DNA of 64,000 nt from Rhodanobacteraceae bacterium (GTDB lineage Bacteria; Pseudomonadota; Gammaproteobacteria; Xanthomonadales; Rhodanobacteraceae), in assembly GCA_004299555.1 (NCBI GenBank), contig SCQU01000006.1, forward strand, positions 62,001 through 126,000, read 5' to 3'. The first letter of the stretch is position 1, and each line of letters starts with the position of its first letter. Under the pieces are notes generated by a model, which searched no databases, had not been told where the DNA came from, and saw nothing but the letters and a program-made list of their open reading frames with translations. A program made the translations under genes and the position numbers. This document shows, in pieces, positions 1,138 through 60,325 of this stretch.

Positions 1138-1288
1138 GGCGTCAGTGTGGCGCGAACGCGGTCATTAGTGAATCACCACCCGGTATCGCCGGACGGCATC
1201 CCACCGATGCGGTCTGGTTGCGCGGCCGCGTCACCCCCTTGGTCCCGAAGGCGGTGGGCACCACAAGCCCAGCCGCAGGTGCCGTGAA

Positions 1289-1496
1289 CCGCTGAAGAGT
1301 CGTCGCGAGCGACGGCAGATTGCGGGTCGCCGGCGGGCCGGAAGCGGAGGGTACCCGTCGGTACATGGGCATGACCCGCCGCATCCGCCGCGCACCTTGC
1401 GGGCCATTCGCTTCGCGAATGTTTGCTCCGGCATCCTGCCTCCGCAGTCCGGGCACCGCCGGCGCGCAAGCTGCCGGGCGCAGCAGGCCATTCAGG
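1289..1496. repeat. Dispersed intergenic repeat, copy A (behind gdhB stop)
   Basis: This non-coding block matches 58975-59255. The outer end (from 1289, CCGCTGAA, then TCGCGAGCGA) and the inner end (from about 1400 to 1496) are nearly identical between copies; the middle aligns loosely, and copy A is about 73 bases shorter. Inside is a perfect hairpin, arms CATTCGC and GCGAATG with a 3-base loop at 1405-1421. The block ends six bases before the stop codon of gdhB. The stretch 1138-1288 between nadK and the repeat shows nothing recognisable. Short frames crossing this block translate to Arg/Ser-rich sequence and are not credible genes. Confidence 0.85.
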
Positions 1497-1502
1497 CATC
1501 CA

Positions 1503-4500
1503 TCAACCGGCCTGCGCCAGTTGGGCCAACCGCCGCAGCGCGACCGACGCGATCGGGTAGTCGACATCCACGCTGCGGATTTCATTGAGCATGCCGCGCG
1601 TGAACTTCAACTGCGGATCATCGCGGTCGAGCCACGCCGATACCGCACCATCGGCACTTTGCTTGCCGTGCTCGGAGTTGAGGATCTCGCGCACCATCTT
1701 GCGCTGTTGGACCGCCAGCTCGTCACGCAGGGCGCCGCGCGCCTGTGCGTGCCAGCGGCTCTCGACGACCAGTTTTTCAATCTGGCTGCGCAGCCATTCG
1801 ATGTCCAGCGCCTCGCCGAGGTCAAAGAACACGCGTGCGACGTGCTCGACCGGACGCCCGGATTCAAGCGAGGTTTCCAGTACATCCATCGCGACTTCCA
1901 GCGACGGGACGGTGGCCATGTGGCGCGCCAGCTCCGCCGGGAACCCAAGTCCCTTCCAGCCATCGAGGCGCGCGTTCCACGCCGCGCGCGTGGTCTCGCC
2001 CAACGCCGCGGGCAGCGCCTCGCGCAGTGTGTCCATCCCCGGCTGGTAGCGTTCGACGAGCGCCGAAATGCCGAGGGCCGACCCGCCGCGATTGAGCAGC
2101 CACCGTGTCATGCCGCGCAGCAACGACCAGATTTTCATCAGCGCGTCGGTCTGTGCTGCGGTCGGAACCTTGCCGTCCAGCGCATCGATCGCCGCCCACA
2201 GTTCGCGTGCGTGCAGGATCTGCCGCGCCGCATTGTAGGCCTTGACCACCGCCGCAGCCGTTTGCCCGGTGTCTTCCTGGGTGCGCAGCACGAAGGTTGC
2301 GCCCATGCGATTGACGATCGAGTTGGTGACGACCGTCGAGATGATTTCGCGCTTCAGCCGGTGCCGCTGCATGTGGGTTGCGTACTTGGCATGCAGCGGC
2401 TCGGGGAAGTAGCTCATCAGCTCGTGCGACAGGAACGGGTCCTCCGGTACGTCCGAATCCACCAGCTCCTGGAACAGCACGATTTTGGAGTACGACAGCA
2501 GGATCGCCAGTTCCGGCCGCGTCAGGCCGAGGTGGTGCGTGCGCCGCTCAGCCAGCTCGGAATCGGTCGGCAGCGACTCGATCTGGCGGTCGAGCTGGCC
2601 GCGCGCCTCGAGCGTGCGGATGAAGTGCGCCATGGTCCCGATGCGCCCGACCGACATGTGCTCCATGAGGCCCAGCGCGACGTTCTGCCGGTAGTTGTCG
2701 CGCAACACCAGCTGCGCCACTTCGTCGGTCATCGAGTGCAGCAGCTTGTTGCGCGCCTCGATGTCCATTTCCTTGCGCTGCACCGCGTCGTTCAGCAGGA
2801 TCTTGATGTTGACCTCATGGTCGGACGTGTCCACGCCTGCGGAGTTGTCGATGAAGTCGGTATTGAGGATCACGCCCGCCTGTGCCGCCTCGACGCGGCC
2901 CTTCTGCGTGAAGCCGAGATTGCCGCCTTCGCCGACGATCTTGCACCTGAGGTCGCCGCCGTTGATCCGCAGCGCGTTGTTGGCACGATCGCCAACGTCG
3001 GCGTTGGACTCGGATGCCGCCTTGACGTAGGTGCCGATACCGCCATTCCACAGCAGGTCAACCGGGGCCTTGAGGATCGCGCTGATCATCTCGGTTGGCG
3101 ACAACGACTCGACGCCATCGGCAATCCCGAGCGCGCGGCGCATCTCGGGCGTGATCGTGATGGCCTTAAGGCTGCGCGCAAACACGCCGCCACCCTTGGA
3201 GATCAGCGCCTTGTTGTAGTCGTCCCACGACGAGCGCGGCAGTGCAAACATGCGTTCACGTTCGGCAAACGACTTCTCCGTGTCCGGCGCGGGGTCGATG
3301 AAGATATGCCGGTGATCGAACGCGGCCAGCAGGCGCGTGTGCCGTGAACGCAGGAGGCCGTTGCCAAACACGTCGCCCGACATGTCGCCGATGCCGACGC
3401 AAGTGAAGTCTTCGGCCTGGCAATCGCGGCCCAGCGAGCGGAAGTGGCACTTCACCGACTCCCAGCCGCCGCGCGAGGTGATGCCCATGTCCTTGTGGTC
3501 AAACCCGGCCGAACCACCCGACGCGTAGGCATCGCCCAGCCAGTAGCCATGCGCGATGGAAATGCCGTTGGCGATATCGGAAAACTTCGCCGTGCCCTTG
3601 TCGGCCGCGACCACGAGGTACGGATCGTCCGCGTCGTGGCGCACCACATCGGCCGGATGCAGCACCTTGTTGGCTGCCGTATCGATGTTGTCGGTAATGT
3701 CCAGCAGGCCGTTCATGAACATCTTGTAGCAGGCGATGCCCTCAGCCAGCACCGCATCCCGGTCGCCCCCCACGGGCGAGCGCTTGACGAAGAACCCGCC
3801 CTTGGACCCCACCGGCACGATCACCGTGTTCTTCACCATCTGTGCCTTGACCAGGCCCAGCACCTCGGTGCGGAAGTCCTCGCGGCGGTCGGACCAGCGG
3901 ATGCCACCGCGTGCGACCGGCCCAAACCGCAGGTGGACGCCTTCCACCCGTGGCGCGTACACCCAGATTTCACGATACGGTACGGGCTTGGGCACGTCCG
4001 GCACCTGGTGCGAATCGAGCTTGTAGGCGATGTACTCGGCGGGCTTGCCATCATGCAGCTGCCAGTAGTTGGTGCGCAGCGTGGCGCGGATGAGGCCCAT
4101 GAACCCGCGCAGGATGCGGTCATCGTCCAGACTGGAAACGTCGACCAGCAGGGTCTTGATGGCGTTGATCAGTCCATCGACCTGTTCACCGCGCGGCTTT
4201 TCCAGCAACGCCGCAACGCGCTTGACGAAATCCGGATTGGCCCGGCACACGGTTTCCGGCGTCAGCGCCGTGAGCTCACGCTCGAGGTCGGCGCGCGCCT
4301 GCTTGCGGCTCGCGGCGTCATCCTGCTCGCGGCGCACGTCGAACTTGGCTTCAAACAGCTCAACCAGCAGGCCCGCAATCATCGGATAGCGGTTGAGGGT
4401 TTCCTCCATGTAGGCCTGCGAGAACGGCGTACCGACCTGTTGCTGGTACTTGCAGTAGCCGCGCAGCATCGCAATCTGGCGCCAGCCAAGGCCGGCGACC

Positions 4501-58929: not shown

Positions 58930-58974
58930 GCCGGCAATTCTAGCCGTACCCGCCATCTGGCGTTGCCAACGTGG

Positions 58975-59255
58975 CCGCTGAATAAGCGTCGCGAGCGATG
59001 GCAGATTGCGTGACGCCGGCTAAATCGACAGGGAACGCCGATTTGAACGCCGCAGGCGGCCCGTAGGGCGAGCCACAGGGATGTGGCGAGTCAGCGCAGG
59101 AAGCCGAGTGTACACGCCAGTACCTGAGCGTTGACTCGTCGCGTCCGCGACTCACCCTTCGGGCCATTCGCTTCGCGAATGTTCGCTCTGGCATCCTGCC
59201 TCCGCGGTCGGGCACCGCCGGCACGCAAGCTGCTGAGCGCAGCGGGCTGTTCAGG
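58975..59255. repeat. Dispersed intergenic repeat, copy B (behind phaC stop)
   Basis: The longer copy of the repeat described at 1289-1496. It shares the start (CCGCTGAATAAGCGTCGCGA), the CATTCGC/GCGAATG hairpin (59165-59181) and the tail up to TTCAGG; it carries about 73 extra bases in the middle. It ends two bases before the phaC stop codon. Both copies are in the same orientation relative to the minus-strand gene they follow. Confidence 0.85.
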
Positions 59256-59257
59256 AG

Positions 59258-60325
59258 TCACCGGGTGCGCTTGGCCAGCCACTCATGGATCGCCGGCGGT
59301 ACCTCGCGCTGCGCGCGACCCGAAACATAGATGCCGATGTGGCCGCCCTTGAACGCCAGTTGCGTGTAATCCTTGGTACCCACGTGCTCACCCAGCGGGC
59401 GCGCTGCCGACGGCGGCACCAGGTGATCCTGCTCGGCAAAGATGTTCAGCACCGGCAGCGTGATGTTTTTCAGGTCGATCGCGTGGCCGCCAATCTCAAG
59501 CCCGCCTTCGACCAGTTTGTTGCCCTGGTAGAAATCCTTGATGAACTGCCGGAACGCCTCGCCGGCCTGGTCGGGCGAATCGAAGATCCACTTTTCCATG
59601 CGCAGGAAGTTTTCCAGCTCGACCTTGTCGTCCATGATGTCCAGCATCGCGATGTACTTCTGCTGGTTGAGGCGCACCGGCTTCAGGGTGAGGTAGCAGA
59701 AGTTCATCAGGTCGGCCGGCACGTTGCCCAGCGTGTCAACGAACAGGTCCACGTCCATGTCGCGCGTCCAGTGCGACAGCATGTTGTCCTTGGTGTGGAA
59801 ATCACAGGGCGTCACCATCGTGATCAGGTTCTGCAGCTTGTCCTGATGCAAGGCGGCGAAGCAGAGCGAAAACGCGCCGCCCTCGCAAATGCCAAGCAGG
59901 TTGATCTTCTTGACGCCCGAATGATTCGCGACGGCGTCGACGCAGCGCCGGATGTAGCCATTGATGTAGTCGTCCAGGGTCAGCCAGCGATCGGCGCGGT
60001 CCGGATAGCCCCAGTCGATGATGTAGACATCCTCGCCAAGCGCCAAGAGATTCTTCACCAGCGAGCGGTTGTCCTGCAGGTCCACCATGTACGGACGATT
60101 GACCAGCGCATAGCAAATCAGGATCGGCGCCTTGGCGGTCGGCTTGCCCTTGCCCTTGTAGCGATATACGACGACCTTGTCCTCGGTGTAGATCGCTTCC
60201 TTGTCGGTCGCACCGTAGTTGACGTCGTCGATTTCCCGCAGGGTGCGGAAGCTCGCGGCCAGTTTCTGCTGGGCGCGCAGGGCCTCATCCAGCGCACGCT
60301 TCGGATCAATGCGGATCGATTCCAT
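59258..60325 (-). CDS. phaC: Class III PHA synthase, catalytic subunit PhaC
   Basis: Polymerises (R)-3-hydroxyacyl-CoA into polyhydroxyalkanoate storage polyester. 355 residues, the length of class III PhaC. The lipase-like box is GICEGG at 145-150 with catalytic Cys147; the Asp lies in IFAEQDHLVPP and the His in KGGHIGIYVSGRAQ. YIIDWGYPDRADRWLTLDDY is family-typical. It needs PhaE, whose gene stops five bases before this start. Start ATG at 60325 (MESIRIDPKRAL); the longer open frame upstream is the phaE gene read in another frame. Confidence 0.96.
   Translation of the reverse strand: MESIRIDPKRALDEALRAQQKLAASFRTLREIDDVNYGATDKEAIYTEDKVVVYRYKGKGKPTAKAPILICYALVNRPYMVDLQDNRSLVKNLLALGEDVYIIDWGYPDRADRWLTLDDYINGYIRRCVDAVANHSGVKKINLLGICEGGAFSLCFAALHQDKLQNLITMVTPCDFHTKDNMLSHWTRDMDVDLFVDTLGNVPADLMNFCYLTLKPVRLNQQKYIAMLDIMDDKVELENFLRMEKWIFDSPDQAGEAFRQFIKDFYQGNKLVEGGLEIGGHAIDLKNITLPVLNIFAEQDHLVPPSAARPLGEHVGTKDYTQLAFKGGHIGIYVSGRAQREVPPAIHEWLAKRTR

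Follow-up and report, generated by a model that had tools for sequence, protein, structure and literature searches.

Two insert-bearing copies of one element follow gdhB and a PhaC-like gene

The window (the whole stretch of DNA analysed, 64,000 nucleotides in length, from the 2.98-Mb, 29-contig genome G000 of a Rhodanobacteraceae bacterium) contains two related blocks, each located behind a minus-strand gene, gdhB in the first case and a PhaC-like gene in the second, and each in the identical orientation to its gene. An earlier note, made from the letters of the window, had described such a like-oriented pair behind gdhB and phaC, and both the sequence and the gene ends confirm it. The blocks it delimited at 1289–1496 and 58975–59255 are real, except that the unit including its outer stem spans 1285–1504 and 58971–59263. 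That the blocks are not random sequence is borne out by a DNA search of the genome with copy 2, which returned 28 matching pieces (query included). The features are as follows.

1285..1504, + strand (strand of the model, the better-folding one): element copy 1 (L036) with insert D within it; covariance model R1 and sequence
1285..1301, + strand: left outer arm of copy 1; alignment and fold, sequence
1372..1448, + strand: insert D in copy 1, 77 bp, a separate dispersed palindrome; repeat sorting
1405..1421, no strand: hairpin CATTCGCTTCGCGAATG of the earlier note, in insert D of copy 1; sequence and repeat sorting
1486..1502, + strand: right outer arm of copy 1, adjoining the gdhB stop; alignment, fold, sequence
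1503..1505, − strand: stop codon (TCA) of gdhB, abutting the right end of copy 1; sequence and gene ends
58971..59263, + strand: element copy 2 (L040) with inserts B and D within it; covariance model R1 and sequence
59020..59092, − strand (nominal: pieces opposite to D): insert B in copy 2, 73 bp, a separate dispersed repeat; repeat sorting
59134..59208, + strand: insert D in copy 2, 75 bp; repeat sorting
59165..59181, no strand: hairpin CATTCGCTTCGCGAATG in insert D of copy 2; sequence and repeat sorting
59258..59260, − strand: stop codon (TCA) of the PhaC-like gene, in the last bases of copy 2; sequence and gene ends

The basic unit is an imperfect palindrome of ~145 bp, in which a conserved core of ~111 nt lies between 17-bp terminal inverted arms, the whole forming one long hairpin. 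In the source genome the unit is bare (without D) in four copies (L013, L019, L021 and L026), and insert D (75–77 bp) is present in four others, namely both window copies, L002 and L004. Two copies of the unit, window copy 2 and L002, hold insert B (72–73 bp), each at a site of its own, and B recurs at about ten further places of the genome, partly incomplete; B and D are each found outside the unit as well. Thus, the CATTCGC/GCGAATG hairpin that had been taken for the element's conserved structure is part of insert D and is absent from bare copies, and the 73 extra bases reported for the second copy are present at 59020–59092 as the separate dispersed repeat B.

A few points in the interior of the unit recurrently hold small palindromes that are unrelated to one another, with the outer stem remaining intact (B in L040, L108 and L113; D-like inserts in L036, L097, L118 and L120; another insert in L048 and L059). 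At a contig end of the source genome (G000:C3:23138-23394; L011, L016) there is a tandem array of a tRNA-Ser-like 5′ half, with a D-type palindrome interrupting it in the region of the anticodon loop; ARAGORN calls no tRNA at this array.

The element belongs to a large dispersed family

To search for further copies, we used the covariance model R1, for which eight copies of the source genome (four with inserts cut out) were aligned and folded. In the source genome, R1 gives 14 rows, comprising 11 distinct places (E ≤ 1.1e-5), two opposite-strand duplicates, and one weak row (E 0.03), so that the two window copies are not the only ones. Among 21 genomes, the source genome included, the unit is present in 11, namely the source genome and 10 of its 12 other congeners; two congeners have no copy, and the unit occurs in 0 of the 8 genomes of other families. 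With stricter filters and a ceiling of 40 or 15 scored candidates for each genome, R1 detects the unit in 15/78 genomes and 6/26 genera of the family and in 32/200 genomes and 16/70 genera of the order. The rows per genome, which partly count both strands of one copy, reach 44 (G021), 57 (G029), 33 (G092) and 46 (G236). An exact pattern occurs in 55 named stretches, whose titles read Lysobacterales, Lysobacteraceae, Rhodanobacter, Rudaea, or only Gammaproteobacteria or Proteobacteria. The family is therefore far larger than two copies and is dispersed over many gamma-proteobacterial genomes.

Carriers mostly differ in which genes have a copy, and the gdhB copy is found only in two of the genomes read. 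One copy in G021 (L269) is a neighbour of the tmRNA gene; at the corresponding position of the source genome (L014) there is no copy, and a D-type repeat is located nearby. Tandem arrays of the element or its core are seen at G132:C43:31730-32267 and G144:C3:975669-976162. We rejected the idea that the element is phage cargo, since the exact pattern matches 0 viral contigs; one Yersinia phage carries a diverged copy.

The right end of the element prefers stop codons

Gene ends were taken from a codon-usage gene caller made for this analysis, annotated public records apart. Of the 222 copies in all sets, 89 have their right end ≤6 nt from a stop codon, compared with 16 for left end to stop, 15 for right end to start, and 3 for left end to start within the same distance (n = 222). 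A stop lies inside the right arm in a further 21 copies and inside the left arm in 15, and it is at this edge only, in such copies, that translation reaches the block.

The preference recurs in three sets of genomes, which are not independent, having a genus in common and some orthologous copies. In the first set (90 copies, genus g1; partial, weak and opposite-strand rows omitted), a gene ends towards the right end in 73 of 90 copies, and its stop lies at −18 to +1 in 63 of these 73, compared with 20.4 expected when copies are slid within their gaps. In the second set (the best 90 rows, from G021 of the same genus and two Rudaea genomes), the corresponding figure is 32/45, compared with 22.1 expected, and both orientations to genes are common. 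In the third set (42 copies from other genera and families), it is 14/22, every one between −4 and 0. Accordingly, the element has a preferred, orientation-specific position at stop codons, as the earlier note had proposed from two copies.

Truncation of the upstream gene is rejected as a general cause of the contact, because the PhaC proteins of nine congeners and the GdhB of the seven congeners read in frame and alike (four of 13 rows being left out as misread) end at the same residue as their element-followed counterparts. Where the stop lies inside an arm, the last residues can differ from those of relatives; the phaC copy L235 of Rudaea is an example. Among copies whose right end has no called stop, some of which may adjoin uncalled genes, stop-like trinucleotides are present at 40/85 right and 26/85 left ends (background 0.145). 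In other genera, they are present at 31/42 right and 16/42 left ends, and a group of Rudaea copies has CTAG at both ends. As stop-like ends also occur away from called stops, we think selection together with a target of TA or stop-like type a better account than a device that recognises stop codons as such.

The hairpin covaries and is maintained on one strand

For structural analysis, 69 copies from two genera (53 + 16), picked from the fetched loci, were aligned with MAFFT. The consensus fold is a single long hairpin of 45 pairs, in which both sides have changed in 30 of the 45 pairs and 95.8% of cells are paired. In the shuffle control, 0/500 alignments reach any of the measures, and slid versions pair 29–40%. 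Covariation extends to the inner pairs: columns 61/87 hold 42 GC and 26 CG pairs, and columns 67/82 hold 35 CG and 32 UA pairs.

The fold is maintained on one strand. Specifically, 113 G-U cells stand against 34 A-C cells (22 vs 4 columns, one consensus G-U column omitted), the bias is found in both genera (82:29 and 31:5), and 65 of the 69 copies are more stable when folded on the favoured strand. When the fold is computed for the other strand, its own pairs hold 65 G-U and 77 A-C cells. With respect to the gene whose stop abuts the right end, the favoured strand is the antisense one, and the maintenance of the fold on this strand argues that a single-stranded form of antisense polarity may matter too. 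A T-rich tract follows the hairpin in only 1/180 and 4/180 copies on the two strands, so that the element is not a simple intrinsic terminator, and the suggestion of a transcript end in this sense is not upheld.

The outer arms are complementary but do not track the core

Pairing of the arms is 0.67–0.97 per position over 17 bp and falls to 0.52 at the first position outside and then to 0.30–0.40 (115 of 135 copies placed, 20 dropped, at least 13/17 pairs being required). At the 12 outer positions, the arms of one copy pair at 0.89 and arms of different copies at 0.64. In 89 copy pairs with cores at least 95% identical, the arms are 0.55 alike, the other bins of core identity giving 0.47–0.56 and the overall correlation of arm with core similarity being weak (Spearman 0.17); for the 43 of these high-identity pairs whose two copies share a genome, the arms are between 0.27 and 0.97 identical. 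Common arms are seen in seven Rudaea copies and one copy of G010. As pairing is kept and the arms do not track the core, the arms are part of the element and are either exchanged or fast-evolving under a pairing constraint. An origin of the arms in host DNA was set aside: the Rudaea phaC copy L235 and the near-empty pairs are suggestive singly, not generally. One locus behind a stop codon (L295) is an arms-only remnant with few core bases left, and reads as a deletion product.

Orthologous copies have arms ranging from nearly identical (L078/L260) to changed in a compensated manner (L080/L265, L097/L176). In 9 rows (8 gene pairs) obtained from the 16 rows found, the core is 0.85 alike compared with 0.61 at four-fold sites, and is the more alike in 9/9 rows. 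Since the cores of unrelated copies are 0.81 alike, this excess is no proof of host selection.

One half of the element corresponds to the small RNA sX9

An Rfam scan of the window at the gathering score gave nothing. Among 16 scanned loci of the order, 15 have one half of the element aligned with sX9 (RF02228, 76 positions) at E ≤ 0.1, and 6 of the 16 exceed the gathering cut-off (44 bits), with a best match of 89 bits (E 7.8e-15). Of the 19 rows at E ≤ 0.1, 18 lie opposite the model strand and one weak row lies on it. In the scanned copies of the window's genus and of Rudaea, the score stays below the cut-off (≤33.3 bits), and the window copies are thus related to sX9 without being members by the Rfam cut-off. 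The link to a small RNA source, which the earlier note had raised, is real, and half of the element is already in Rfam. sX9 was reportedly discovered through RNA sequencing in Xanthomonas. Its Rfam model differs from the element in covering one half only, opposite to the better-folding strand, and includes neither a dispersed palindrome nor contact with stop codons.

More distant relatives were found by blastn with one copy, which matched E. coli and Klebsiella records in the plasmid collection, Yersinia phage and Salmonella records in the phage collection, and 1958/5426 E. coli genomes. R1 aligns end-to-end to two E. coli stretches and the Klebsiella stretch (E 3.7e-21 to 1.8e-20), and over its positions 10–134 to the Yersinia phage (E 7.1e-15). 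In the Klebsiella dnaN-recF spacer, the match includes the dnaN stop in its final four bases. The copy at qseE in E. coli DTU-1 has its right end 5 nt from the qseE stop, and a third form, located between nuoL and nuoM of E. coli, is not at a stop (about 70 nt away). The qseE-qseG form has matches in 5375/5426 E. coli genomes, at a median of 5 places. We presume from size and copy number that the E. coli copies may be the RSA repeat (about 150 bp, few copies). The Yersinia phage copy, from one phage present as two records, is diverged, and sX9 matches it at E 1.2e-4. In vB_YenM_42.18 (L359:560-683), it is located between the terminase and head-completion genes and takes up the greater part of an annotated hypothetical protein of 93 nt that is possibly no real gene.

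Discussion

The element has the traits of a miniature inverted-repeat element: it is short (145 bp) and non-coding, it has 17-bp terminal inverted arms, and it reaches tens of copies in some genomes; TA or CTAG occurs at both ends in only some copies. We consider it somewhat probable that the copies represent a non-autonomous MITE/ERIC-like palindromic element that comes to lie behind stop codons by target preference, places a hairpin in the 3′UTR, and sometimes gives rise to a small RNA. Under this explanation, copies would spread by transposition, with a transposase acting in trans, and would enter at stop-like or TA-type trinucleotides. In GC-rich genomes, such sites would be scarce save at stop codons, and insertion at a stop codon would spare the protein, so that copies would gather there. 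Transcription of a gene should run on into an element at its stop, which would form the beginning of the 3′UTR; there, the hairpin would act on the decay of the mRNA or on the release of ribosomes and could yield a stable small RNA such as sX9. Judging from ERIC and REP repeats, ribosomes should leave more slowly, or 3′–5′ decay should be blocked, where a hairpin immediately follows a stop. The mobile element suggested in the earlier note fits the patchy distribution and the variable copy number, from which we infer mobility itself; our searches, which for transposases covered PF01797, turned up neither a transposase to go with the element nor a duplicated target nor an empty site that was clean, and the best near-empty pair was not clean. 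A function in the 3′UTR only would not predict a fold that is kept antisense to the abutting gene; sX9 lies on the other strand. Also counting against the explanation are the arms that do not track the core, the frequency of both orientations to genes in G021 and Rudaea, and the nuoL-nuoM copy away from a stop.

We leave some room, tentatively, for a second reading, in which the element might be a mobile element that is widespread in gamma-proteobacteria and acts as a folded single strand of one polarity. Its mechanism would set one end on stops, its arms would be rewritten at or after moves and kept complementary, and sX9 and the E. coli and Klebsiella spacers would be pieces of it.

It is unlikely, in our judgement, that the copies are instead host-serving 3′UTR or small RNA elements, kept and partly inherited vertically, whose hairpin regulates the gene and which move rarely and did so long ago. 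Speaking for this view are the covariation along the entire stem, like or compensated arms in orthologous copies, the excess of core over four-fold conservation, the sX9 half, and the near-universal qseE-qseG form of E. coli. However, unrelated cores are nearly as alike as orthologous ones, the set of genes with copies varies among most carriers, and two congeners have none.

A more specific proposal, which we find quite doubtful, is that the element acts when one of its strands, always of the same polarity, is folded as ssDNA or RNA. A recombinase would recognise this form, or it would be copied in the manner of single-strand transposition, so that it would work like IS200/IS605 ends or attC sites without being one of them. 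Consistent with it are the strand-specific pairing in two genera and a switch of orientation on contig C1 of Rudaea cellulosilytica (G029), where copies change at about 1.09 Mb, near a sampled sign change of GC skew, from 12+/6− to 2+/12− (12/18 plus to 12/14 minus; the cut was chosen post hoc). Yet no matching recombinase was found, Y1 transposase genes do not track the family, and the orientation looks mixed on the long contigs of G021.

Movement as a REP/BIME repeat by a RAYT (Y1 transposase) is highly improbable. The element is palindromic, intergenic and near stops, as reported for E. coli REPs (PMC12306157), but PF01797 is absent from seven searched carriers (G002, G003, G010, G011, G012, G021 and G092), whereas G008 and G009, which lack the element at E ≤ 0.001, do match it, and the unit is far longer than 20–40 bp; we rejected RAYT as the driver on the distribution of PF01797. 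Least credible of all is insertion of the core into ready-made palindromes behind stops, such as terminator hairpins, with the arms being host DNA: arms that do not track the core, and YPAL targets that are described as spanning or adjoining dyads (PMC2229807), speak for it, but the arms end at a fixed length and are common to the seven Rudaea copies and one of G010, the consensus dyad occurs alone in 0/14 genomes, and hairpins 0–3 nt behind stops are not enriched where the element is absent (16, other 4-nt bins holding 14–51; 744 genes, 115 set aside as occupied), and we rejected such targets.

Among known systems, the element can be compared with ERIC/IRU (127 bp), likewise a dispersed, imperfect, non-coding palindrome near genes that forms one long stem-loop, and for which orientation-dependent destabilisation of upstream transcripts is reported (PMC2229807 and PMC2267715). 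It differs from ERIC, known here by description, in having mostly stop-like rather than plain TA ends, copy-specific arms, and one end on stops. YPAL/RU-2 of Yersinia (~168 bp) is likewise a GC-richer palindromic mobile repeat behind genes, but it is longer and described without terminal inverted repeats (PMC2229807 and PMC2759123); it is reported to be mobile (PMC2229807). A by-eye comparison with the YPAL sequence printed in PMC2759123 revealed no common apical motif or similarity. REP/BIME repeats are also palindromes near stops, but they measure 20–40 bp against 145 bp, and the element is unlinked to Y1 transposase genes. REPs ≤15 nt from a stop are reported to stall ribosomes (in a paper cited in PMC12306157). 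BoxC, a G/C-rich triplex motif of other make-up, was set apart by its description in PMC4666352. For skipping-rope RNA, the scanned copies gave no Rfam match of that name.

Integron attC sites have conserved RYYYAAC/GTTRRRY end boxes and stand in cassette arrays. We excluded them by inspection, since the outer arms of the element vary, its centre is conserved, and its copies are dispersed among chromosomal genes.

A literature search of partial coverage, with the sX9 paper outside it, found no paper describing the element. The large structured repeat family is real and of a known general kind, MITE/ERIC-like. For the orientation-fixed contact with stops, the copy-specific complementary arms, and the strand-specific covariation, we found no description in the literature covered by that partial search.

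One structured family thus unites an intergenic repeat, a Xanthomonas small RNA, the E. coli qseE-qseG spacer, and the Klebsiella dnaN-recF spacer. Its members are a ready set on which to test hairpins of this kind for control of translation termination, of mRNA decay, or of the birth of small RNAs from 3′UTRs, and culturable carriers exist in laboratory E. coli and in Rudaea cellulosilytica DSM 22992, which has some 50 copies. Furthermore, the copy-specific self-complementary arms and the strand of the fold raise the question of how palindromic elements copy and maintain themselves.
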